From: Candidatus Krumholzibacteriia bacterium
GTDB taxonomy: Bacteria > Krumholzibacteriota > Krumholzibacteriia > JAJRXK01
NCBI GenBank assembly: GCA_035268685.1
Contig: DATFKK010000043.1
Location: forward strand, 1-37,240
Length of the DNA: 37,240 bases
Reading direction: 5' to 3'
In this document: positions 22,249 through 36,931 of the stretch, one piece after another
Position numbering within the stretch: position 1 is the first letter of the stretch
Layout of the letters: every line of letters begins with the position of its first letter
Translations under genes and position numbers: made by a program
Notes under the pieces: generated by a model
What the model was told of the DNA's origin: nothing
Databases searched by the model: none
Seen by the model: only the letters and a program-made list of their open reading frames with translations

Positions 22249-23199
22249 TCAGGGCAGATAGGCCAGGCGCAGTGAGATCCGGTGCGTGGTGTCGAAGGCG
22301 TCGACACTGTTGTCCATGAACGCGTAGTCGAGCACCAGCGGCCCACGGCGGAAGCCCGCGCCGAAGGTCGCGCCCCAGACGTCGTAGTTGAAACGGTGGC
22401 CGGCGCGCACGGCGAAGCTCTCGTGGATCCGGACCTCGGCGCCGGCGTGCAGACGGCTGTTGCCGTCGTTCGGTGCGACGACCTCGGCCGCGAACTGGAA
22501 GCGCTCGAGCCACGCCTGCCCCGGGACCACCGGTCGGTAGCTCGCTCCACCCCGGATGGTGCGCGGGAGCGCGGTGTCCTCCTCGTTCAGCGTCACCGCC
22601 GGCCCGAGGTTCTGGACGGAAGCCGCGAGACGCAGACCCTCGATGGTCGCCTCGTGCGCGATCCCGAGATCGAACGCGTAGCTCGAACCGTTGAAGGCGT
22701 CGATGTTCTCGTGCACGAACTTCACGGTGGCGCCGAGCGTGAAGGCCGGGAAGGATCGGGCGAAGCTCAGGCCGGCCGCCGCCCCGTAGGGCCGGAAGGT
22801 GCCCGCGGCCGCGCCGCTGCCCTCGATCTCGGTACGGTCGAGCTCGTCGCTGTAGAAGCCGTTCAGGCTCAGACCGAAGGTCCCGATCCGGGTGGCATGG
22901 CTCAGGGCCAGACTCTCGCGCCGGAACAGGCCGAGGTACTCCGCGTGCTGCACCGCCATCTCGGTGCCCTCGACGTCGGCGAGGTTCGCGGGATTCCAGT
23001 GGACGGCGGTGACGTCGACGGCCGACGCGACACCGGTCTCGCCCATGGCGCCGGCCCTCGCCCCGACACCGAAGCGCAGCCAGAGCAGTCCGGCGTCCCC
23101 GGGTTCACCGGCCGTCGCCGCGACGGGGGCGAACAGGGTCGACAGCGTGAGCGCGAGCGCGAGCACGGCCCCGCGGCGGGCGGAGAGCGTGGGATGCAT
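22249..23199 (-). CDS. PorV/PorQ family outer-membrane beta-barrel protein
   Basis: 316 residues: signal peptide (about 1-31, ending TAG), then an all-beta sequence with the family opening 'GLLWLRFGVGARAGAMGETGVASAVDVTAVHWNPANLADVEG', and a C-terminal aromatic pattern ending RLAYLP. This matches the PorV/PorQ (UPF0164) group of FadL-like barrels; PorV shuttles type IX cargo to the attachment complex in Bacteroidota. It lies directly downstream of the giant M6-like protein, which ends in a sorting-type domain, so cargo handling is a reasonable idea. It has its own promoter. SD GGAG lies 7 bases before the ATG. Convergent with lpxH, 12 bases apart. Confidence 0.82.
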   Translation of the reverse strand: MHPTLSARRGAVLALALTLSTLFAPVAATAGEPGDAGLLWLRFGVGARAGAMGETGVASAVDVTAVHWNPANLADVEGTEMAVQHAEYLGLFRRESLALSHATRIGTFGLSLNGFYSDELDRTEIEGSGAAAGTFRPYGAAAGLSFARSFPAFTLGATVKFVHENIDAFNGSSYAFDLGIAHEATIEGLRLAASVQNLGPAVTLNEEDTALPRTIRGGASYRPVVPGQAWLERFQFAAEVVAPNDGNSRLHAGAEVRIHESFAVRAGHRFNYDVWGATFGAGFRRGPLVLDYAFMDNSVDAFDTTHRISLRLAYLP

Positions 23200-23267
23200 G
23201 GAGGATCTCCCGGTGTGCGCCGCGACCGGCGCCGTTTCGGAGGGGGGTCGACAGGGGCCGCCCCGTG

Positions 23268-23297
23268 AGTATACGCAGGCCGCGTGCCGGCCTTCAA
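23268..23297 (-). promoter_or_regulatory. Sigma-70 promoter of the PorV-like gene
   Basis: TTGAAG (23297-23292), 18-base spacer, TATACT (23273-23268) on the - strand; start near 23261, about 60 bases before the ATG. It lies just after the M6-like gene. Confidence 0.7.
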
Positions 23298-23312
23298 ATG
23301 CCGCGCGGAAGT

Positions 23313-26300
23313 TCATCGGACCACCGTCAGCACGGCGCGTTCCTCGCCGTGCTCGGTCTCGACCGCACACAGGTACATGCCCGCGGCCACGTCCCCGAGT
23401 TCGATCTCCTCCTCGAAGAAGGCCCCGGCCGGCGTCGCCACCGGCCCGACGGACACGACTTCCTGTCCTTCGAGCGAGTAGACGGTCACCGTGACCGTCG
23501 CGAAGCGGTCCACCCGCATCCGGACACGGAAGCGGCCGTCGACCGTGGGATTGGGATACACGACCAGCCCGGGATCGGCACCGAAGGATCCGCTCGCGGG
23601 CTCGAGCCGGGCCCGGGTGAAGTTGTCCACGCCGTTGCCCCCTTGCGTCCAGGGCGCGTAGGCGGAGACCGGGACGTCGAGGTCGAAGACCCGGAGGTCG
23701 CCGGTGATCGTCGTCTCGACGTCGCGCGCGGGAGCATCGATCGAGTCCAGGCGCTCGAAGCGTCCGATCACGGCCAGGTCGAGGTCACCGTCCCCGTCGA
23801 GGTCGGCCACGACCGGCGTCGACACCGGTTCGGCCGGACCCGCGACCGGCCACCCGGGGACCACGCGGCCCTGGAGGTCGACGGCGTGCACCGACCCCGC
23901 GGGCTCGTGCCACAGGACCTCGGCGGTGCCGTCGGCATCGAGGTCGACCAGCACCGGGGCGACCGCGCGGCTGCCCACCGGCGGCTCGACACCGCCGCGT
24001 TCGGGCCTGTACGGGAAGCCGGGTAGCGAGCGGAGATTGCGATCGAAGACGTGCAGCGCGCCCCCGAGCGTGACCGCCAGCACCGTCGGTCCGCCGTCGC
24101 TCGCGCGGGCCACCGCCGGGGCAGAAGCCGGGAGACCGGCTTCCAGCGAACTCCGCGCAGGAACCGCGGCAGGATCCACGGCCGCCGTGAGGTGCAGACG
24201 GCCCTCGCCGTCGACCCAGGTCACCGCCGGAGAACCGTCGCCGAAGACGACCGGGGCGAGCGTCCGCGGCATCACACCCGCGTCGAGCGTCGACCGGCGG
24301 CGGACCTCGCCTTCGACGTCGAAGGTCAGCAGGGTCGTCGCGGTCGAGTCCCGCCGGACCCCCACCACCCACGCGACGTCGGTCGTCACGAACACCGCCT
24401 CGTCGAGACGGTCCTCCGCCGTCCAGAGCACGGCCGCCGTCGGGTCCGGTGCGGCCGGGCCGAGGCCGACGAGCTCGGTTCCCGTCCCCCCGGATCGGAC
24501 GAAGGCCCCCAGGCCGGCGATGCCCGACTCCGACGGTGTGGCCAGGAAGGCACTCACGCCGCGGCCGACCGCTCCGCTCACCAGGGTCGGGTCGGCGATC
24601 CCCGCCGCCTGCAGGGCGCTCTCGCCGACGACCACCACGTCGAGTCGATCGTCTCCGTCGACGTCGACCACCGCGGGCGCGCCCCGCGGACCGTCGCTCG
24701 CCGGGAGCGTGACCCAGGCCGGGGTGATGCCGAAGGGCTCGACCCCGTTGCGCCACGCGAGCACGCGCCCCGCGTCGGCCGCGGCCACGAGTTCGGGCAC
24801 ACCGTCGGGGCTCCGGTCGGCCGCCGAGGTCCCGAGGTCGGCCGCGCGCAGGTCGAAGTCCGGCGCCAGTCCGACCGTGCGGGCCCGGCCGAGTTCACGC
24901 GGTCCGTCGCTCGCCGCATCGAATTCCACCGAGAAGGTCATGGCCCGGTGGTAGACGAACCCACTGCAGAACAACTGGCCCTGGAACTCGAACTTCGGCA
25001 GCGAGTCCTGCACGACCGTCGACACGTCGAACATGCGGACCCCGGTCCTCAGGCCGTCGTTCGTCCGGGTGTCCGGCAGCGTATCGGGACCGAACTCTGT
25101 GGCCCCCTCGCCCCGCCAGGCGTCGTCGTCGGAACCGAGCAGGTACAGGCCACCGGCGAGGGAGTCGAGGTCCTGGATCCCGTCGGCCTCCTCGACGTCC
25201 ACGCCCTTGCGGGTGGCGTCGGAGTTGATCGTGTTCGTCCCCGCGAGCACCGCGTCCTGGATCACACGCTCGTCCACGTGCCAGATGTACAACCCGCTGC
25301 CTCCGGCCCGTTGGCAACCGTCGGGCGTGCGAGCGGAGTTCTCGCTCATGAACCAGTCCCACTCGGCACCGAGTTCGTCCTCCCAGGTGTCGGTGGCAGG
25401 ATCGAAGGTCGAGGTCGGCGTGCCGTCTCCGCGCGCGCTGTCGGCGTCGAAGTAATCGGGCACGTTGTTGCCGTTGCCTCCGCCTTCGGGAGTCTTGCCC
25501 GGGAACGAGTAGAACAGGTCCCCGTCGGGATCCTGCAGTCTGTACTCGACGAGCCAGTACTCGCGTTCGTTGATCGGGACGCGCACGAGCAGCGTGTCAC
25601 TGACGGCCGCACCGACCGAATCCATGGCCCCGATCCGCAGATCCGCGTCGACGGTCACGTCGACCGGATCGACCCATCCCATCAGGTAGCGGTTCATCGC
25701 GCTCGGTGCCGACGGCACCGTCGACAGACCCGTGAACAGTCCGAAGCCCATCAGACCGAAGTTCCCGATCCCCTGACTGTCGGGGAAACTCGAAGGCGTG
25801 AAGTCGGGCAGACTGAGCATCCCCAGACGCAGCCCGATCTCGAAGGCGTAGACCCCACGCACGTCGAAGAAGCCCGCCAGGCCGTTGCTCTCGGGTGGGT
25901 CCTGGGCCTGGGCCTCGGGCAGCACCAGCACGTGCTCGATCGCGGCTTCGTCGCTCGGGACGAAGGCCTGTTCGAGGTAGTCGGCCTCGACCGCGTTCTC
26001 GAAGTCGCGAACGTCGAGATAGTTGCTGAAGATCTGCGCCGGGCTGTCGCCGTTCACGTCGGTCTCCTGGCCGGCGCCGGCGTGGATCAACACCAGGGTG
26101 TCGTAGGACGAGAAGTCGACGTCGTCGTCGATCGCCGCGACGACCTGCTTCGCCATGCGAACCGCCCGCACGCTCGAGCTGTCGTCGTCCCCGTAGTAGC
26201 CCATGCCCTCGGGCAGGTTCACGATGTCGCCGTGCACGTCCCACTGCAGGTCGAGCCGACCGAAGCTCACCGTCCGGAAGTAGTCGTCGACCCGCTGCAT

Positions 26301-26705
26301 CTGCAGATCGAAGTAGGTGGAGTCGTGGGCGGCGAAGATCGGGGTCCCGCCGTAGGGATCGTCCGGCGTCGCCGGTGGGATCACCTGCGAGCCGCGACGC
26401 CCCTCGGGCCAACCCGGGAAGTCCGACCGGTCCCGGCCGACCATGAGACTGTCGGCGAAGTCGCATCCGACCACGAGCATCGACAGCGACGTCGGGGCCG
26501 CGCGGCGGGCCAACGCGATCCCTGCGTCGAAGCGCAGCGGCGGCTTCGCGGGCAGCGCCTCGCGGACCGCACGGATCCGCTCCGGGATCGACGGATGGGA
26601 ACGCGTTTCGGGGATCGCCGCCTGCGCCCGTCCGCCGGCGAGGACGAGCGAAGCCAGCAGCAGGACGCGGACCAGCGACGCGCGCGAAGGGATCGGGAGG
26701 TTCAT
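23313..26705 (-). CDS. Exported M6 metalloprotease-like protein with FG-GAP repeats and sorting-type C-terminus; zinc motif lost
   Basis: 1130 residues. Signal peptide about 1-29. The next 350 residues follow M6/InhA proteins ('TPIFAAHDSTYFDLQMQRVDDYFRTVSFGRLDL' style region, 'SSYDTLVLIHAGAGQETD', 'GIGNFGLMGFG'). Where active members have HExxH the sequence reads F288-E289-I-G-L292: the Glu stays but both His are replaced by Phe and Leu, with 'LSLPDF' following. The centre to C-terminus has calcium-type FG-GAP/VCBS motifs ('VVDVDGDDRLDVVVVG', 'VLVDLDADGTAEVLW', 'VVADLDGDGDLDLAVIG'). The last 90 residues ('VVYPNPTVDGRFRVRMRV', 'VTVTVYSLEGQEVVSV', 'AGMYLC') resemble type IX sorting or FlgD-like Ig domains. 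Likely a secreted binding protein or pseudoprotease. It has its own promoter. Confidence 0.85.
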   Translation of the reverse strand: MNLPIPSRASLVRVLLLASLVLAGGRAQAAIPETRSHPSIPERIRAVREALPAKPPLRFDAGIALARRAAPTSLSMLVVGCDFADSLMVGRDRSDFPGWPEGRRGSQVIPPATPDDPYGGTPIFAAHDSTYFDLQMQRVDDYFRTVSFGRLDLQWDVHGDIVNLPEGMGYYGDDDSSSVRAVRMAKQVVAAIDDDVDFSSYDTLVLIHAGAGQETDVNGDSPAQIFSNYLDVRDFENAVEADYLEQAFVPSDEAAIEHVLVLPEAQAQDPPESNGLAGFFDVRGVYAFEIGLRLGMLSLPDFTPSSFPDSQGIGNFGLMGFGLFTGLSTVPSAPSAMNRYLMGWVDPVDVTVDADLRIGAMDSVGAAVSDTLLVRVPINEREYWLVEYRLQDPDGDLFYSFPGKTPEGGGNGNNVPDYFDADSARGDGTPTSTFDPATDTWEDELGAEWDWFMSENSARTPDGCQRAGGSGLYIWHVDERVIQDAVLAGTNTINSDATRKGVDVEEADGIQDLDSLAGGLYLLGSDDDAWRGEGATEFGPDTLPDTRTNDGLRTGVRMFDVSTVVQDSLPKFEFQGQLFCSGFVYHRAMTFSVEFDAASDGPRELGRARTVGLAPDFDLRAADLGTSAADRSPDGVPELVAAADAGRVLAWRNGVEPFGITPAWVTLPASDGPRGAPAVVDVDGDDRLDVVVVGESALQAAGIADPTLVSGAVGRGVSAFLATPSESGIAGLGAFVRSGGTGTELVGLGPAAPDPTAAVLWTAEDRLDEAVFVTTDVAWVVGVRRDSTATTLLTFDVEGEVRRRSTLDAGVMPRTLAPVVFGDGSPAVTWVDGEGRLHLTAAVDPAAVPARSSLEAGLPASAPAVARASDGGPTVLAVTLGGALHVFDRNLRSLPGFPYRPERGGVEPPVGSRAVAPVLVDLDADGTAEVLWHEPAGSVHAVDLQGRVVPGWPVAGPAEPVSTPVVADLDGDGDLDLAVIGRFERLDSIDAPARDVETTITGDLRVFDLDVPVSAYAPWTQGGNGVDNFTRARLEPASGSFGADPGLVVYPNPTVDGRFRVRMRVDRFATVTVTVYSLEGQEVVSVGPVATPAGAFFEEEIELGDVAAGMYLCAVETEHGEERAVLTVVR

Positions 26706-27029: not shown

Positions 27030-28802
27030 TCAACCGCGACCGCCACCTCCTCCTCGTTCGCGCGAGCGCGACGACCCACCGCCGCCACGGTTGCGCGAGG
27101 GTTCACTCCGCCGCGTCGGCGTCGACCGCTGGGGCGCGGCCCGCTCACGGCTCGGGCGCGACGGGCGGCTGCGCTCGACCTTGCGCTCGGGTCGGCGGGG
27201 ACGCTCGCGCTCCACCTTGCGCTCGGGTCGACTCGGACGGTTGCGTTCCACGTTGCGCTCGGGTCGCGTCGGGCGGTTGCGCTCGACGTTCCGTTCCGGA
27301 CGCGAGGGACGGCTGCGTTCGACGTTCGACGGTGCACGCCGTGTCGGTCGGTCCCGGTCCTCCCGGATCCGGCTCCGATCGGCTGCCCGGCCCGAAGAAC
27401 CACCCTCGTTGCGGATCACCGGCCGCGTCCAGCGACGCTCGGTGCGCGTGCCGCGATCGCCACTGCGGTCGCGCGGTGGCGCGACCCCGGAGCGCTCCAT
27501 GCTCGAGCGTGATCTCTCGCCACGGGATCGATCGGGAGCGAGGCTCGTCAGGCGCCGCTCGTTCCTCGGCCCCCGGTCCTCGCGCAGACCCGTGCGCGCC
27601 GGCCGTTCGTTCCGATCGCGACCACGGGGTGCGAGCTCGGCCCGCTCACGCGTCGGCGCGCGGTCACGCACCAACTCACTCGCCTCGACACGACTCCGTA
27701 CGTTCTCCCGCTGCCGGACGGCAGCGATGCTCACCGGCGCGTTGCCCGACGCGACGTCGCCCAGACCCGGTACGCGCCGCGTGCGGCGCTTGGGACCGTC
27801 GAAGTCGTAGAGCGTGTGCGTGTTCACGGATCCCTTGCTGTAGCGGACCCGGAAGTCCCCGCCGTACCACGGGGAGTCGTGCCACGCGTACCATGCATGG
27901 GGCCGTGCGTAGACGGGATAGCTCGGCCACGAGTAGTAGACCGGGTAGTACGAGAACCAGTAGGGACGCCCGTAGTAGGGGTCCCAGTAGTAGTAGGCCG
28001 GCTCGTAGTACAGCGGGTACCAACCGAAGCTCACCCGCCAGCGTCGCTGCCAGCCCCAGTCGGAGTAGACGTTGATCGTCGTGCACTCGTCGACGTAGGG
28101 ATGCACGGACTCCGTCGTGGCCGTTGCATCGCCCCCACCGTGGCACTGGGTGCAGGTGTAGCGGGCATGATCGACCTGCGATTCGACGTACAGGTGCGCC
28201 CAGTCCGTCACCACGTAGTCGACGTCCTCCTCGAGACCGGTGATCGCGTAGTTGATGTCGTTCACCGCGAGGAAGGGATCACCGGCGATCCGGTAGTCGT
28301 AGCCGCGCTCGTCACCGAGGTCGAAGCGGAAGTCGACGGCCAGGCCGCGCAGGTCGAAGGGCACCTCACTGGCGATCACCTGCACGTACTCGACACCCTT
28401 GCGTTCGCCTGCGGTCAGCCGCACCGGGCTGCCCGGACGCGGCAGGGTGTAGGTGTGGTTGCCGTAGACGAAACCGTCGTCGTAACGCGATGTCGGCCAC
28501 AGGACCTCGACGTAACCGTCGACGTCGATACGGTAGACCACGACGTAGGAATCGCCGTTCGTGCGGAAGTACATCTCGTAGGGCTCGCCACGGCGGTACG
28601 GCCGTTCGTCCTCGGTCCGCTCGTGCCAGAGCTGCACGCGGATGTCGCGCGCGGGCGCCTCGAGGTCCTCGTAGACCTGGTCGACCGATGCGCCCTGCAC
28701 CCAGCGATCGCCGGCGGTGGACTCGGGTCCCTGCGCCCCGGCGGCGGGCGGCAGCAGCAGCGCCAGCGCCGCGGCGGTCACGATCGTGCGCATGGTGTTC
28801 AT
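27030..28802 (-). CDS. Secreted DUF4384-like protein with one CXXCH, aromatic tract and Arg-rich RGG tail
   Basis: 590 residues with signal peptide (1-23, ending AGAQ). Residues about 50-165 resemble DUF4384 ('VQLWHERTEDERPYRRGEPYEMYFRTNGDSYVVVYRIDVDGYVEVLWPT'-like start of that domain in short pieces). CTQCH at 217-221 is a c-type haem motif; only one other Cys (C240) exists. Residues about 246-314 are dominated by Tyr, Trp and Pro. From about 337 on the chain is very basic, with five 12-residue repeats at 492-551 and a C-terminal Gly/Arg tail (RGGGG, RGGGGG). Function unknown. The ATG overlaps the stop of the upstream lipoprotein gene (ATGA), and the pair has a sigma-54 type promoter. A long disordered Arg tail on a secreted haem-motif protein is unusual. 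Confidence 0.8.
   Translation of the reverse strand: MNTMRTIVTAAALALLLPPAAGAQGPESTAGDRWVQGASVDQVYEDLEAPARDIRVQLWHERTEDERPYRRGEPYEMYFRTNGDSYVVVYRIDVDGYVEVLWPTSRYDDGFVYGNHTYTLPRPGSPVRLTAGERKGVEYVQVIASEVPFDLRGLAVDFRFDLGDERGYDYRIAGDPFLAVNDINYAITGLEEDVDYVVTDWAHLYVESQVDHARYTCTQCHGGGDATATTESVHPYVDECTTINVYSDWGWQRRWRVSFGWYPLYYEPAYYYWDPYYGRPYWFSYYPVYYSWPSYPVYARPHAWYAWHDSPWYGGDFRVRYSKGSVNTHTLYDFDGPKRRTRRVPGLGDVASGNAPVSIAAVRQRENVRSRVEASELVRDRAPTRERAELAPRGRDRNERPARTGLREDRGPRNERRLTSLAPDRSRGERSRSSMERSGVAPPRDRSGDRGTRTERRWTRPVIRNEGGSSGRAADRSRIREDRDRPTRRAPSNVERSRPSRPERNVERNRPTRPERNVERNRPSRPERKVERERPRRPERKVERSRPSRPSRERAAPQRSTPTRRSEPSRNRGGGGSSRSRERGGGGGRG
27150..27329. repeat. Five tandem 36-base coding repeats
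   Basis: Encodes residues 492-551 of the DUF4384-like protein as five 12-residue units of the form [S/R][N/K]VER[S/N/E]RP[S/T/R]RP[E/S]. The units are similar but not identical in DNA, so they are old enough to have drifted while keeping the basic pattern. Confidence 0.85.
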
Positions 28803-29794: not shown

Positions 29795-29813
29795 AACGCA
29801 CCCCGCGTGCCAG
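29795..29813 (-). promoter_or_regulatory. Sigma-54 type promoter of the Fn3 lipoprotein/DUF4384 pair
   Basis: On the - strand, CTGGCACGCGGGGTGCGTT: GG at -24, exactly 10 bases, then GC at -12, with the TGGCACG half perfect against the sigma-54 consensus. Start near 29785 gives a leader of about 48 bases. Two sigma-54 activator genes lie upstream in the same region. Confidence 0.65.
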
Positions 29814-29932: not shown

Positions 29933-29991
29933 TGTCCTCCAGGGGACATCGCGGCCCGTCCGTCGTCACGGGGGGACAGGGACTTGTCCCC
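29933..29991. promoter_or_regulatory. Candidate activator sites (TGTCC/GGACA dyads)
   Basis: GGGGACA-N6-TGTCCCC (29972-29991) is a perfect 7-base dyad; TGTCC-N6-GGACA (29933-29948) is a weaker second copy, and a half site TGGGGAC follows at 29995. They are centred about 130-180 bases upstream of the sigma-54 promoter at 29795-29813, the usual range for enhancer-like activator sites. Confidence 0.5.
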
Positions 29992-30064
29992 GACTGGGGA
30001 CGTGGCCCGGCTGCCATCGAGCGTCGGCGCCGCGACCGGGGCGAGGGAAGACGCGAGGGAATAC

Positions 30065-30429
30065 GAGAACGGGCCGCACCGGAGTGCGGCCCGTAGCGCC
30101 AAGTTCCCTCCCGCCCCGTGACGGGACCCTGCCCTTCGCGGTCCACGGAAGTCTCGCCATCTCCCGTGGTCCAGGCGCGGTCCCTGCGGAGCGGTCGGAT
30201 TCTCGCCGCGAAGCGACTCAGGAGGACGGGGAAGAGCCGTGCTTTTCACTCATGCCGCCGATTGCTCCCCCGGAACCCCACCTTCCGGACGATCGATCGG
30301 AGACCCCACTTCGGAAAAGCTCCTCGTTCAGCCGGTGAGCGGAGAGGTCGATCTCCCCACTCCCCCCGAGTCGATCGGGCCGAAGCCCGACTGGACGATC
30401 GGATCACGACTGCCAGTGACCGATCACGG
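30065..30429 (-). ncRNA. Candidate sigma-54-driven structured small RNA, about 360 nt
   Basis: The limits are set by a sigma-54 type promoter (30439-30454) and a hairpin terminator (30069-30094) on the same strand, with no convincing gene between. The predicted 5' end is itself a hairpin, GACCG-TGAT-CGGTC (30431-30418). Next is TCGGGC-TTCG-GCCCGA, a stem with a UUCG tetraloop closed by C-G, in 30361-30400. GGACCACGG pairs with CCGTGGACC (one mismatch) further along. A pyrimidine run TCCTCC at 30222-30227 is complementary to ribosome binding sites. Only an 11-codon ORF (30218-30253) and two frames that run through the terminator exist. It is not RNase P, tmRNA, 6S or SRP RNA by their conserved blocks. 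Confidence 0.5.
30069..30094 (-). terminator. Perfect 10-bp terminator hairpin of the candidate RNA
   Basis: Arms ACGGGCCGCA (30069-30078) and TGCGGCCCGT (30085-30094), 6-base loop. On the - strand the stem is followed by TCTCGTATTCCC, modestly T-rich. No coding gene ends here: the nearest - strand stop upstream is 560 bases away. Confidence 0.7.
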
Positions 30430-30438
30430 TCCCGGAAG

Positions 30439-30454
30439 AGCACCCTTCGTGCCA
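30439..30454 (-). promoter_or_regulatory. Sigma-54 type promoter of the candidate RNA
   Basis: TGGCACGAAGGGTGCT on the - strand: GG, exactly 10 bases, GC. It shares TGGCACG-N2-GGGTGC with the promoter at 29795-29813, which supports both. Start expected near 30429. Confidence 0.65.
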
Positions 30455-30557
30455 TGGGAGCAACGGCAGATGTGAATCCACAAACCATTGTAATTGAACA
30501 GGTTACGACACCCGGCCGAACAGCATCCCGACGAGCTCCCCACGGGGTCTCGCCGAC

Positions 30558-30596: not shown

Positions 30597-30621
30597 CAAC
30601 CCCATGCAATGCAAGGGGTTG
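30597..30621. promoter_or_regulatory. 25-base near-perfect dyad (CAACCCC...GGGGTTG)
   Basis: Arms CAACCCC (30597-30603) and GGGGTTG (30615-30621) enclose TGCA-A-TGCA; only the central base and one base pair break symmetry. It lies 36 bases after the stop of the TPR activator and about 145-165 bases upstream of the candidate RNA promoter. It could be an enhancer-type site, or a terminator for the activator gene (no T-run follows). Confidence 0.55.
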
Positions 30622-30656: not shown

Positions 30657-33600
30657 TCAGGAATCCGGCGATAGCCCGAAGATGCGGATCTTCTGCAGGA
30701 GCGTCGGATAGCTCACCTTGAGCCGACGCGCCGCTTCCGAACGGTTCCAGCCCGACTCGTCGAGTGCGGTCTGGATCGCGCGGCGTTCGAGTTCCGCGAT
30801 CTGCTCACGGAGCGGACGCATCGAGGTCCGCTCGCGTTCGTCGACCACACCATCCCCTGCCGCACGGACCTCCGGGGGCAGGTGCTGGTCCCTGAGACGC
30901 TCGTCGTCGGCGGCCAGGATCAATGCCCGTCGGATCGCCTTCTCCAGCTCACGCACGTTTCCCGGCCACCGATGGGCGTCGAGCCGCTGCGCCGCGGACC
31001 GGGTCATGCGTGGCACCGGACGCCCCAGTTCCTCACAGGTCCTGCGGAGGAAGGTGTCGGCCAGCAGCAGGACGTCGCCTCCCCGATCGCGCAGAGGCGG
31101 AACCTCGATGGGGAAGTCCATGAGCCGGTAGTAGAGGTCCTCGAGGAAATCACCCTGCTCGACCATGCGGCGCAGATCGCGCTTGGTCGCGCACACCACC
31201 CGCACGTCGACCACGCGGGCCTTGCGACCGCCGACCGGCCGCACCTGACGATCGTCGAGGAAGTGCAGGAGCTTCGCCTGCATGGTGACCGGCATCTTGC
31301 CGACCTCGTCGAGGAACAGGGTCCCGCCGTCGGCCGACGCGATCAGACCCTCCTCGTCCCGTTCGGCCCCGGTGAAGGCACCGCGGACGTGACCGAAGAG
31401 CTCGCTCTCCAGCAGCGTCTCGGGAATCGCGGCACAGTTGACCGAGATCAGGGGCTCGCCGTGGCGCGGGCTGAGTTCGTGGATCACCTGGGCCAACAGG
31501 CCCTTGCCCGTCCCCGTCTCGCCACTGAGGAGGACGGTGTAGGGACTCGGGGCGACCTTCGAACAGAGCCCCAGGACCTCTTCGACGCACGCACTCCCCG
31601 TGACCACCCTCGACGCCGGACCGCCGTCCGTGTTCGGCCGCGAATCACCGGACGGCCGGGAGAGCTCACCGTAGAGAACGCCCACGGTCGTCGACACGAC
31701 GGCGAGGGCCTCGGCGTCGAAGGGCAACAGGCGCTCCGCGGCAGCCGGAGCATCGAAGTACAGGACACCGGCGATCGACGGATCTTCGGATCCGCGATCG
31801 ACCAGCGGGAAGGCCACGGCGCTCGCCAGGGGTCCGCGTCGGGTCCCGAAGGCCTCGCTCCAGTCGGGATCGTGTTCCATGTCGCTCCACACGCGGGCCG
31901 CGGGAGCGTGTTCGCGCCGGAGCAGGGCATGGGCACGGGCGCAGAGTTCGCGCGCCGTCACGCTCGGCACGGATCGCGTCGCCAGGACGTCGGTGCGCCC
32001 ACGCTCGCTCACCAGGGCCAGGGCACCCCGCTCGGCACCGAGCTGCTCGGCCGACGCGTCGAGCAGACGCTGCAACGACGCTCGCCCGGAATCGGTGGCG
32101 GCCGACAGCCCCGATACGTGGTCCGGAAGGTCGACGAGATCGCTCAGCGATGCCCGCTCACGATCCACGCGGCGGGTCATGCCGTCCTCGATCTCGCGAC
32201 GGAGGATCTCGGCCGCCCGCACGGCCTCGCCCGCGTCCCCGCCGGCGAGACGCTCGAGTTCGAAGAGGGCGATCATCGCCTCGTCGTGGTGATCCAGAGC
32301 GAGCTCCGCGCGGGCCAGGGCCAGGTGGAGCGACACGGCGTCGACGTCACCCTCGGTGTCGCGCAGCCGCAGAGCCTCCTGGAGCCGCGCCCGGGCGAGC
32401 AGGGCGTCCTCGGACGAACCGCGGCGCAGGTGCAGCTCCGCGAGTTCGCGCAGGGTCTGCGCTGCCTCCGCCGTCAGGCGGTGGTCCCCGAAGGCATCGA
32501 TGGCACGGCGGAACGACTCGACGGCCGTGTCCGTTTCGCCCGAGAGCGCGTGTGCACGGGCCAGAGCCCGGCACAAGAAGCCTCGCTCGAAGTCCTCGCC
32601 CACGCGAGAGGCCACGGCGAGCCCTTCTTCGGCGATCTCGATCGCCTGCTCGGAGCGCCCCAGGTCGAGGGCCAGCTCGGCCTGCCGCCGACGCACCTCG
32701 GCGACGATGTCGTTCTCGTCGCTCAACGCTCGCGCGCGCTCGATCGCCAGATCGTAGTTGGCCGCCGCCTCGGCGAAGCGCTCGCTCGCGCGCATGAGAT
32801 CACCGAGGAACTCGTCGGCGAGCGCCATCTCGCGAATCATCTCCTGGCGCTCGGCCAGGACCTTCGACTCGAGGAGAGCCCGCTCCGCTTCGACGAAGCG
32901 TCGGTCCTCGATGTCGAGCTGGCCGCTGAGGAGCAGGAGCCGCGTGAGGTCCGCCTGGTCGCCGCGGCTGCGTGCGCGCGCGATGCCCCGGACGGCCGTG
33001 GCACGGGCCTCGGCGCGCTGTCCCATCTTGCGGTACAGGACGGCCTTGTTCAGGAGGAGGACGTCACACTCGTAGGTCGCACCGTGCGCGTGGAAGAGCT
33101 CCTCGGCGCGCTCGTAGAGCTGCAGGGCCCGAGTCCATCGACAGGCCCGCTTCGCCAGCAGCGCCAGGTTGTTGAAGACGTGCGCCTGCGAGACGGCGTC
33201 GTCGATGCGGCGGAAGGTCCCGAGCGCGTCCTCGAAGAACTCCTGGGCCTTCTGTACGCGTCCGGTGCAGGCATGGGCGATCCCGAGGACGATCTGGGCC
33301 GATCCGACGTCGGCATGCCGATCGGTGATCGAGAGGACTCCGAAGGCCTGCAGGGCCAGGTCACGGGCTTCGACGAATCGGCCCTGACTCTGGCGCACAC
33401 GCGCCAGGCGCACTTCGACGATCGCCCGTCCGACGTCATCGTCGGAGGACGTGTTCCCGCGCGCCAGCTCGAGTTCGCGCGCGGCCTCGTCGAAGGCACC
33501 CTGTAGACGGTGACAGTCGGCCAGCTTCACGCGAAGGCCGACCTCGGCGCTCGCGACGCCGTCCGGCCGCCGCCCCCTCAATGCCGAGCGGTAGTAGTCC

Positions 33601-33743
33601 ACGGCGGAGGAATACGCCGCCGCGTGGAAGTGGAGATCCCCGACTTCTTCGAGTCGGGCCGACGACGTGGTCGGATCGTTCTCGGCACGGGGTCGAGGCG
33701 GTGTGGGTCGCCGCCTGTCGTCCCCGTCGCGGAATCCATCCAT
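30657..33743 (-). CDS. Sigma-54 activator with TPR sensor, GAF-like, AAA+ and Fis HTH domains
   Basis: 1028-residue cytoplasmic transcription activator. Residues about 30-500 are TPR-like helix pairs ('AVDYYRSALRG', 'AQEFFEDALGTFRRIDD', 'ALQLYERAEELFHAHG'); about 530-690 is a GAF-like domain; the AAA+ domain has Walker A GETGTGKG at 741-748 and an intact GAFTGA loop at 788-793 that contacts sigma-54; the C-terminus is a Fis-type HTH ('NRSEAARRLKVSYPTLLQKI'). There is no receiver domain, so input comes from TPR/GAF ligands or partners, not phosphorylation. Walker A ends in KG, where most members have KE. The ATG was chosen for AAGGGA 6 bases upstream. It is followed by dyads and sigma-54 type promoters that it may control. 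Confidence 0.92.
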   Translation of the reverse strand: MDGFRDGDDRRRPTPPRPRAENDPTTSSARLEEVGDLHFHAAAYSSAVDYYRSALRGRRPDGVASAEVGLRVKLADCHRLQGAFDEAARELELARGNTSSDDDVGRAIVEVRLARVRQSQGRFVEARDLALQAFGVLSITDRHADVGSAQIVLGIAHACTGRVQKAQEFFEDALGTFRRIDDAVSQAHVFNNLALLAKRACRWTRALQLYERAEELFHAHGATYECDVLLLNKAVLYRKMGQRAEARATAVRGIARARSRGDQADLTRLLLLSGQLDIEDRRFVEAERALLESKVLAERQEMIREMALADEFLGDLMRASERFAEAAANYDLAIERARALSDENDIVAEVRRRQAELALDLGRSEQAIEIAEEGLAVASRVGEDFERGFLCRALARAHALSGETDTAVESFRRAIDAFGDHRLTAEAAQTLRELAELHLRRGSSEDALLARARLQEALRLRDTEGDVDAVSLHLALARAELALDHHDEAMIALFELERLAGGDAGEAVRAAEILRREIEDGMTRRVDRERASLSDLVDLPDHVSGLSAATDSGRASLQRLLDASAEQLGAERGALALVSERGRTDVLATRSVPSVTARELCARAHALLRREHAPAARVWSDMEHDPDWSEAFGTRRGPLASAVAFPLVDRGSEDPSIAGVLYFDAPAAAERLLPFDAEALAVVSTTVGVLYGELSRPSGDSRPNTDGGPASRVVTGSACVEEVLGLCSKVAPSPYTVLLSGETGTGKGLLAQVIHELSPRHGEPLISVNCAAIPETLLESELFGHVRGAFTGAERDEEGLIASADGGTLFLDEVGKMPVTMQAKLLHFLDDRQVRPVGGRKARVVDVRVVCATKRDLRRMVEQGDFLEDLYYRLMDFPIEVPPLRDRGGDVLLLADTFLRRTCEELGRPVPRMTRSAAQRLDAHRWPGNVRELEKAIRRALILAADDERLRDQHLPPEVRAAGDGVVDERERTSMRPLREQIAELERRAIQTALDESGWNRSEAARRLKVSYPTLLQKIRIFGLSPDS

Positions 33744-33814
33744 TGGGCGTCCCTTGGGCGAGAAGGGGTTCAAGGTAGCCGAGGCACGCTCCGGGAATTC
33801 CGGGAGCTCGTCGC

Positions 33815-33845: not shown

Positions 33846-34157
33846 CTAGCGGAACCAACCGAAGGTGAGAATTCGGATCAGGTCGGCGAACCAGTCCGCG
33901 AAGACCCAGGGATCGTCGCCGGACGTGTCGTCGGCCGGGCGGTTCTGACCGCCCAACCAGTTCTCGGGGTCACCTTCCGTGTCGACCGGAGGACCGTCGG
34001 ACCCGTCGTCGGACCCGCTACCCGGCGGGGAAACCGCCGACTTGCCCGACATCGACCACGCGAAGTCGTCGACGTCGGCCGCTGCCGGCGTGACCATCGC
34101 CCCTCCGAGCGCCAGACCCAGAACCAGAGCCATGACCACCAAAACGCGGCTCTTCAT
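33846..34157 (-). CDS. Small secreted protein of unknown function
   Basis: 103 residues with a clear signal peptide (MKSRVLVVMALVLGLALGGA, cleavage after PAAA), a short acidic Gly/Ser/Asp-rich linker ('GSGSDDGSDG'), and an aromatic C-terminus ('WVFADWFADLIRILTFGWFR') that could insert into or bind a membrane. Start ATG with AGGAG about 10 bases upstream; a sigma-70 promoter lies about 160 bases upstream at the end of the ntrX-like gene. It sits between two sigma-54 activator genes. I recognise no family. It may be a partner or signal for the TPR activator; this is only context. Confidence 0.7.
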   Translation of the reverse strand: MKSRVLVVMALVLGLALGGAMVTPAAADVDDFAWSMSGKSAVSPPGSGSDDGSDGPPVDTEGDPENWLGGQNRPADDTSGDDPWVFADWFADLIRILTFGWFR

Positions 34158-34315
34158 GTTGACCGTGCTCCTCGTGACAGGACAGGGGTGGCGGCAGACC
34201 AAGCCGCTTCCCGTACCGGACGGGCCTCCTGGATCGCGGGGCGAGTGGGCGCTGTACAGGGAGAGGGGGCCCCGGGAGCGCGATCCCGTCGACGTTCCGT
34301 CCGGTCTGGATGTTC

Positions 34316-34341: not shown

Positions 34342-34345
<4 letters not shown>
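34316..34345 (-). promoter_or_regulatory. Sigma-70 promoter of the small secreted gene
   Basis: TTGACA (34345-34340), 18-base spacer, TACGTT (34321-34316) on the - strand. The -35 covers the stop codon of the ntrX-like gene. Leader of about 150 bases. Confidence 0.65.
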
Positions 34346-35763
<1,418 letters not shown>

Positions 35764-35764
35764 G

Positions 35765-35778
35765 CGAGGTCGACCTCG
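35765..35778. promoter_or_regulatory. 14-base palindrome at the ntrX-like start
   Basis: CGAGGTCGACCTCG, a perfect palindrome one base before the ATG. In the mRNA it would pair the likely GAGG ribosome site with CCTC, or in DNA it may be an operator. Confidence 0.45.
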
Positions 35779-35851
35779 TCTATATCGTGGGTGGGCCGGG
35801 CGGAACCTTCCCGCTCCGGCCGCGATCCTGTCAAGAAAGCGCGACAGCACG

Positions 35852-36931
35852 ATGAAGCGAAACACCCTGGTCGGCATGAGCCCGCGCGAGCTCCAGGAGC
35901 TCGCCGTGGCCCACGGACAGCCGCGCTACCGCGGCCGTCAGCTGGCGCAGTGGATCTACGGCCGTCGCATCGCGAGCCTCCGGGACGCCACCAACCTCCC
36001 TCGTGCGCTGCGCGAGGAACTCGACGCGGCGTACGGTCTTCCGCGTCTGGAACCCGTGGAACGTTCGGTGTCGCCCGACGGGACCGCCAAGCTTCTCTTC
36101 GAACTGCACGACGGGGCCCGGATCGAGAGCGTGGCCATGCCGCGCCCCACCGGCCGCACCACGTACTGTCTGTCGAGCCAGGTGGGCTGCCGCATGGCCT
36201 GCGTGTTCTGCGCCACCGGTCGCATGGGAATCGTACGCCAGCTCTCGCCCGGCGAGATCGTCGGACAGGTCCTGGCCCTCCAGCGCCTGTTCCCCGAATC
36301 GACCCATCCGAACCTCGTGTTCATGGGCATGGGCGAACCTCTCGACAACCTCGACGCCTTGCTGCCCGCCCTGGAGATCCTCATGGATCCCGAAGCCATC
36401 GGGCTGTCGGCGCGGCGGATCACCGTGAGCACGTCGGGGCTCGTCGACGGCATCCGGCGTCTGTCGGACTGGGGCCGACCCGTCGGATTGGCCGTCTCGC
36501 TCACGACCGGCGATCCCGAGGAGCGCGAGCGCCTCATGCCCGTGGCCGGACGGGTCCCGCTCGACGAATTGCTCGCCGTCGCCGCCGACCACGGCCGCCG
36601 CGTGAAGCGGAAGGTCACGCTGGAGTGCGCGATCATCGCCGGTCGCAACGACACCGTCGACGAGGCCGAGCGCCTGCTGTCGCTCGCGCGGACGGGTCCC
36701 TTCAAGGTCAACCTCATCCCGCTCAATCCCATCCACGACTTCGAGGGCGGGCGGCCCGACCTCTCGAGCATCGACGCCATGGCCGACGTGCTCTGGCGCG
36801 GCGGCGTGGTGGCCACCGTGCGCGACAGTCAGGGACGCGAGGTCGATGCGGCCTGCGGTCAACTGGTCCGTCGTCAGGAACGGCGGCCCGACGGTGCTCC
36901 GCGCGGACCAGCGGTGGCGCGCCGGCGCTGA
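35852..36931 (+). CDS. rlmN: Dual-specificity RNA methyltransferase RlmN
   Basis: 359-residue radical SAM enzyme that methylates C2 of A2503 in 23S rRNA and A37 in some tRNAs. The 4Fe-4S cysteines are C113, C117 and C120 in 'SSQVGCRMACVFCATGRMG'. The two catalytic cysteines of the RlmN mechanism are C106 and C335 ('VDAACGQL'), so it is an RlmN, not Cfr by context. 'MGMGEPLDN' is also typical. The ATG (MKRNTLVGMSPRELQ) was chosen because it gives the family length; a longer upstream frame would overlap the ntrX-like gene. No clear ribosome site. Convergent with the last gene, 3 bases apart. Confidence 0.95.
   Translation: MKRNTLVGMSPRELQELAVAHGQPRYRGRQLAQWIYGRRIASLRDATNLPRALREELDAAYGLPRLEPVERSVSPDGTAKLLFELHDGARIESVAMPRPTGRTTYCLSSQVGCRMACVFCATGRMGIVRQLSPGEIVGQVLALQRLFPESTHPNLVFMGMGEPLDNLDALLPALEILMDPEAIGLSARRITVSTSGLVDGIRRLSDWGRPVGLAVSLTTGDPEERERLMPVAGRVPLDELLAVAADHGRRVKRKVTLECAIIAGRNDTVDEAERLLSLARTGPFKVNLIPLNPIHDFEGGRPDLSSIDAMADVLWRGGVVATVRDSQGREVDAACGQLVRRQERRPDGAPRGPAVARRR

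Follow-up and report, generated by a model that had tools for sequence, protein, structure and literature searches.

Gene neighbourhood of the RNA interval

The window, by which we mean the whole stretch of DNA that was analysed (37,240 nucleotides), contains an interval for a predicted RNA that sits on the minus strand between the gene encoding a TPR-type sigma-54 activator and a lipoprotein-like gene (Table 1). The order of the genes is rlmN, response regulator, small secreted protein, TPR activator, RNA, lipoprotein, DUF4384 protein, M6-like/FG-GAP secreted protein with a type IX tail, PorV-family protein and phosphoesterase, and this order is largely retained from rlmN to the phosphoesterase among the representative genomes compared. 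Full-length orthologues of the TPR activator are present in most genomes of the phylum (58 of 80 at E<1e-120), and relatives also have a gene encoding an NtrC-type response regulator upstream. The match of the M6-like protein to NF052323 (E 9e-60) is below the family cut-off. The type IX-type proteins hint at kinship with the FCB group, though this is no more than a guess. Comparable small proteins to the one encoded between the two activator genes were seen at the loci of relatives. Additionally, one genome encodes the TPR activator twice: its second copy, also full-length, is at G044:C1:2050696-2053761, and the locus downstream of it (L048) has neither P1 nor the RNA motifs.

Table 1. Positions of the genes, promoter elements, dyads and RNA parts in the window.
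Feature	Position	Strand	Remarks
NtrC-type response regulator, second candidate activator	34342..35877	-	Pfam Response_reg, Sigma54_activat and HTH_8
Small secreted-looking protein	33846-34202		no family; between response regulator and TPR activator
TPR / AAA+ sigma-54 activator / Fis-type HTH protein	30657..33773	-	Pfam Sigma54_activat, TPR_12 and HTH_8
Distal P1 dyad, CAACCCCTTGCATTGCATGGGGTTG	30597..30621	-	may double as terminator hairpin of the activator mRNA in relatives
Proximal P1 operator dyad (putative), TAACCTGTTCAATTACAATGGTTTG	30481..30505	-	
P1, sigma-54 -24/-12 element, TGGCACGAAGGGTGC	30440..30454	-	exact match; predicted +1 about 30428
Structured non-coding RNA, ~360 nt, predicted transcript	30066..30428	-	fold, covariance model, covariation
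5' hairpin	30425-30397	-	confirmed
C(UUCG)G stem	30391-30374	-	confirmed
Helix 2 (long-range, closes first domain), 5' arm	30352..30373	-	MFE pairs
CCUC..ACCGGC..GAGG conserved element (helices 4/5 of family model)	30322..30347	-	model alignment, covariation
Hairpin E, loop GGUGGGG at 30282-30276	30270..30288	-	loop in 52/66 loci, stem varies
Helix 2, 3' arm	30214..30235	-	MFE pairs; includes TCCTCC (30226-30221)
Hairpin F, loop with GGCGAGA at 30158-30152	30143..30169	-	9-bp stem in window
Intrinsic terminator hairpin, 11 bp, around GGGCCGCACTCCGGTGCGGCCC	30069..30094	-	sequence and MFE pairs
P2 enhancer-like dyads	29961..30002	-	CGTCCCCAGTCGGGGACA at 30002-29985; weaker one at 29978-29961
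P2, second sigma-54 promoter, TGGCACGCGGGGTGC	29798..29812	-	exact match; upstream of lipoprotein gene
Lipoprotein-like gene, first after P2	28799..29737	-	no Pfam family; kept as next gene in relatives
DUF4384 protein	27030..28802	-	
M6-like protein, FG-GAP repeats, type IX sorting tail	23313..26705	-	NF052323, E 9e-60 (below family cut-off)
PorV/PorQ-family outer-membrane protein	22249..23370	-	NF033709, 148 bits against a cut-off of 90; conserved

Fold and conservation of the RNA

The minimum free energy (MFE) of the predicted transcript is -198.7 kcal/mol, and the near-identical interval 30429-30065 folds with a z of -4.2, a level reached by none of 100 shuffles. The first domain of the predicted fold is made up of helix 2, the CCUC..ACCGGC..GAGG element and hairpin E, and the second domain consists of hairpin F, followed by the terminator. 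An initial annotation of this DNA had described a 5' hairpin at the predicted +1, a C(UUCG)G tetraloop stem and a second long stem (helix 2), all of which were recovered here, as well as a perfect 10-bp terminator; the terminator hairpin is present, and its stem is 11 bp long. The same annotation had suggested that the TCCTCC run could pair with ribosome binding sites. Within the long stem the run falls in a stretch of 13 bp, so that it is paired in the predicted fold, and since it is buried in this helix and not free, such pairing is unlikely. The absence of a convincing ORF was borne out when tblastn of seven ORFs gave no conserved coding frame, the matches all being weak, located on both strands and in some cases interrupted by internal stops; a conserved small protein was rejected on this basis. 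ARAGORN found no tRNA or tmRNA.

With a DNA similarity search by itself the RNA was convincingly found in only one close relative, so synteny and structure were needed to trace it. Covarying stems, which the initial annotation had proposed to seek in relatives, were found in family f5, where 19 RNAs share a 92-pair fold in which 90.8% of the cells are standard pairs; a slide of the alignment by one column lowers the pairing to 56% and 52%. Double-sided changes occur at 47 of the 92 pairs, and the cells with double changes number 158 versus 58 +/- 6.5 after shuffling, a value that 0 of 500 shuffles reach. The counterpart of helix 2 covaries in this family, and RNAalifold gives -163 versus -48 +/- 5 for shuffled columns. 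A covariance model (R1) that was built from family f5 alone, with the family of the window excluded, matches the window RNA at 30241-30348 with a modest score of 26.6 bits (E 9.2e-4 for the whole 4.6-Mb genome), and this is its only match in that genome; the weakest member of family f1, L006, scores 15.9 bits. In 31 genomes the model finds a single copy each. When the f1 and f5 RNAs (32 sequences) were aligned to the model, double changes were seen at 27 of 31 pairs; as these sequences were themselves fitted to the model, the unfitted alignment A1 is the cleaner test of covariation. No significant match to R1 was obtained in families f2, f3, f4, f6, f7 and f8, where the case consists of P1, synteny and the common loops; family f4 retains P1, and its loops are absent or changed.

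The loops GGUGGGG and GGCGAGA are nearly invariant and their stems vary, with the GGCGAGA loop carried on altered stems in families f1, f2, f3, f5 and f7. Hairpins equivalent to the terminator are likewise found in relatives with altered stems. A search of Rfam returned nothing at gathering cut-offs in the window, permissive searches gave only weak matches far below cut-off, and no published account of this RNA was found in the literature. That the interval specifies a structured RNA, in contrast to chance hairpins or a coding gene, is nearly certain, and we are similarly confident that it represents a new family of structured regulatory RNAs, encoded by a gene present in one copy. It is uncommon for a structured RNA of this size to show synteny throughout a phylum, and the RNA provides a ready covariance model as well as a sharp prediction of two constant loops, one sigma-54 promoter and one operator.

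The arrangement of the two domains differs among the families. Family f6 has RNA1 only, and families f3 and f7 have the two domains on distinct units that differ in their promoters. A terminator-like helix of its own, in most cases with a T-run, ends RNA1 of f3/f7. RNA2 carries the GGCGAGA hairpin and a conserved CCCCUCC loop, and the folds of both RNAs are well above those of shuffled columns. In 16 of 17 f3/f7 loci (L038, L042, L047 and others) RNA2 is preceded by a sigma-70-type promoter candidate, which lies upstream of the GGCGAGA loop by about 60-65 nt, and several candidates are near consensus, for example TTGACT-N19-TATAAT. It therefore appears that one f3/f7 locus yields two RNAs, and the separation of the domains means that they need not work as one molecule.

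Promoters and operators of the locus

The initial annotation had placed a -24/-12 promoter with exact spacing in front of the RNA, and this element (P1) holds up in the comparison, as its -24 GG and -12 GC are conserved in relatives; RpoN is present in the genome. Exact matches to TGGCACN6TGC occur only twice in the 37-kb window, at P1 and at P2. When one mismatch is allowed, the window has 11 sigma-54 motifs versus 8.4 expected, which is no enrichment, so that the evidence for P1 is its conservation. In 66 of 69 loci, from all eight families of the phylum, the stop codon of the activator is followed after 200-460 nt by a P1-like element, which bears out the synteny of the RNA with the TPR activator that was to be checked, and the positions GG, A and TGC are 98-100% conserved among these 66. 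P1 was taken in each locus as the best-scoring site in the stretch, and in 49 of the 66 its score is at a level reached by 1.5% of shuffled segments; with scores that go down to 16.7, some of the sites are weak, and for these the position is the main argument. A convincing P1 was not found in L048, which lies behind the second activator copy of G044, in L049, which follows a truncated activator match (G026), or in L053, which follows a non-orthologous activator (G025). The assignment of P1 as a predicted sigma-54-type promoter is supported by these comparisons of sequence.

The dyad pattern TAACnnnTTG-N5-CAAnnnGTTA occurs in the window only at the proximal and distal positions upstream of P1 (0.02 expected). 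Among the loci of the phylum the TAAC dyad lies at about -50 or -60 from the P1 element with a near-fixed spacing, a second copy is often present at about -150 to -175, and the best match is at least 11/14 in 76% of loci versus 5% in shuffles. The distal dyad overlaps a terminator-like hairpin in some relatives, so the proximal one alone is taken as the putative operator. A genome-wide search with three mismatches gave 21 sites in the genome of the window versus 28 for the reversed control and is thus not specific at this setting; with two mismatches, the dyad was clearly above the control only in some relatives (G011, 17 versus 2; G021, 23 versus 6). A second repeated dyad, TGTAAA-N5-TTTATAG, was seen to alternate with the TAAC dyad upstream of P1 (30629-30644 and in relatives). 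At two other loci in the genome of the window, a TAAC-type dyad lies ~60 nt ahead of a sigma-54-like element: in L101 the dyad is at 1501 and the sigma-54-like site at 1562, before fliP/fliR-looking genes, and in L103 (G000:C2, minus strand) the dyad is at 1501 and the promoter-like site at 1561, downstream of another activator. In relatives, TAAC-type dyads were also seen upstream of genes with pilin-like signal peptides (L107 and L116).

The P2 element was found in 56 loci, 439-785 nt after P1 and ahead of the next operon. In several families TGTCC-N8-GGACA is located at about -182/-160 of P2; the dyad of the window is degenerate and not rare there by itself. The sequence TGGCACNNNNNNTGCNTTG has a single occurrence in the whole genome, at this locus. 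With its two different operators and two activator genes, the secretion locus probably has a two-branch circuit, a compact arrangement in which the conserved P1/P2 pair would serve two activators. The RNA had been proposed as the main output of the TPR activator, which it is not clearly, because the locus has two activators and two types of operator.

Possible modes of action and related systems

It is proposed that an enhancer-binding protein binds the TAACnnnTTG-N5-CAAnnnGTTA dyad upstream of P1 and activates sigma-54 polymerase, which would make the ~360-nt RNA from P1. The RNA would fold into two domains, the first with a long-range helix and the GGUGGGG loop and the second being the GGCGAGA hairpin by the terminator, and would act in trans by binding a protein. 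With its two loops it may hold an RNA-binding protein other than Hfq or CsrA, titrating or recruiting it in a mode resembling that of CrcZ or RsmZ, and the RNA would thereby adjust envelope or secretion genes, which the same locus would control at transcription through P2. Loops that stay constant while their stems vary suggest that the partner is constant too, the simplest candidate being a protein, and the terminator before P2 together with the separate operators argues for an independent RNA. Hfq was not found in 12 genomes, and a search of 23 genomes gave no CsrA in 8, among them G005, G012, G013, G015 and G016, which carry the RNA locus; this favours another RNA-binding protein. We infer a trans-acting, protein-titrating role with moderate confidence; the whole explanation, that of a sigma-54-induced, trans-acting RNA that titrates or recruits a protein, is tentative and falls somewhat short of an even chance. 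The wider picture of an Hfq- and CsrA-independent, sigma-54-induced RNA-protein regulator within a two-activator circuit coupled to type IX-type secretion, split in two families into sigma-54- and sigma-70-driven RNAs that cooperate, is decidedly doubtful. As there is no Rfam match and Hfq was not found in the lineage, the RNA may offer a route to the protein that serves RNA regulation there.

The main rival to protein titration is base pairing, in which the exposed GGUGGGG and GGCGAGA loops would pair without Hfq to C-rich mRNA sites or to a conserved RNA and alter the translation of envelope genes, in a role like that of Qrr or GlmY/Z. Sigma-54-driven sRNAs of such a type are known, the loops are G-rich and exposed in the predicted fold, the CCCCUCC loop of RNA2 in f3/f7 resembles an anti-Shine-Dalgarno seed, and a conserved RNA, for example rRNA, could equally be the pairing partner of the constant loops. 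However, the complement of neither loop is enriched in P2 leaders, the only targets examined, pairing between RNA1 and RNA2 in f3/f7 is not above shuffles, and the TCCTCC run of the window is in a stem. The failure to find Hfq in the 12 genomes also speaks against base pairing, and loops constant throughout a phylum are unusual for mRNA seeds; we consider this mode possible, though on the unlikely side. The RNA is upstream of the operon on the same strand in the loci compared, and the terminator stem encloses the F hairpin in f5 and f3, as an expression platform might, which would suit a cis-acting leader: read-through from P1 into the lipoprotein/PorV operon, with the RNA as a ligand- or protein-sensing attenuator. 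This is less likely because P2 provides the operon with its own sigma-54 promoter and enhancer-type dyads past the terminator; additionally, a conserved alternative antiterminator fold was not seen and the first RNA has its own terminator in f6 and f3/f7, and we regard such a leader as improbable.

The strict synteny with the TPR activator (66/69 loci) would also fit an RNA that binds one of the two enhancer-binding proteins of the locus in a local feedback. This conjecture is quite improbable, as Pfam recognises no RNA-binding domain in either activator. The initial annotation had counted about 11 GGA triplets without clear enrichment and had judged a CsrA sponge unsupported. Both points agree with the present analysis, in which the 11 triplets compare with 7.7 +/- 2.4 expected, slightly above composition. 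A CsrA gene is present in the genome of the window, and the 5' hairpin loop of f5, ACAGGGA, resembles the CsrA consensus, which counts in favour of a sponge. On the other hand, the constant loops are not GGA loops and CsrA is missing from the five named genomes with the RNA locus. A sponge was set aside because CsrA does not track with the RNA, and of the readings weighed it is very improbable indeed.

The protein-titration reading can be compared with several known systems. The Qrr sRNAs of Vibrio, under LuxO, are sigma-54-driven RNAs of ~100 nt that are present in multiple copies, one adjoining the activator gene, and act by Hfq-dependent base-pairing, whereas the RNA described here is single copy, ~360 nt long and of another fold, in a lineage where Hfq was not found. 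GlmY acts by titrating a protein, and the involvement of sigma-54 is shared with GlmY/GlmZ (GlrR), but no Rfam relation was found and the neighbourhood differs. The CsrA sponges of the RsmZ/CsrB type are structured RNAs whose loop motifs titrate a protein; unlike these, the present RNA has one loop each of GGUGGGG and GGCGAGA. In Pseudomonadaceae, the non-coding RNA gene crcZ is directly downstream of the enhancer-binding-protein gene cbrB, with its own sigma-54 promoter and conserved synteny (PMC8871633). By analogy, cbrB-crcZ is the closest architecture, as the window RNA is also predicted to be a sigma-54-promoter RNA gene downstream of an enhancer-binding-protein gene, with synteny kept. 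CrcZ binds Hfq/Crc, in contrast to the present case with Hfq not found in the 12 genomes, and the CrcZ-type A-rich Hfq/Crc motif, AANAANAA, does not occur in the window RNA; only 13 of 66 loci have it. The window RNA further differs from CrcZ in having its own conserved, covarying fold.
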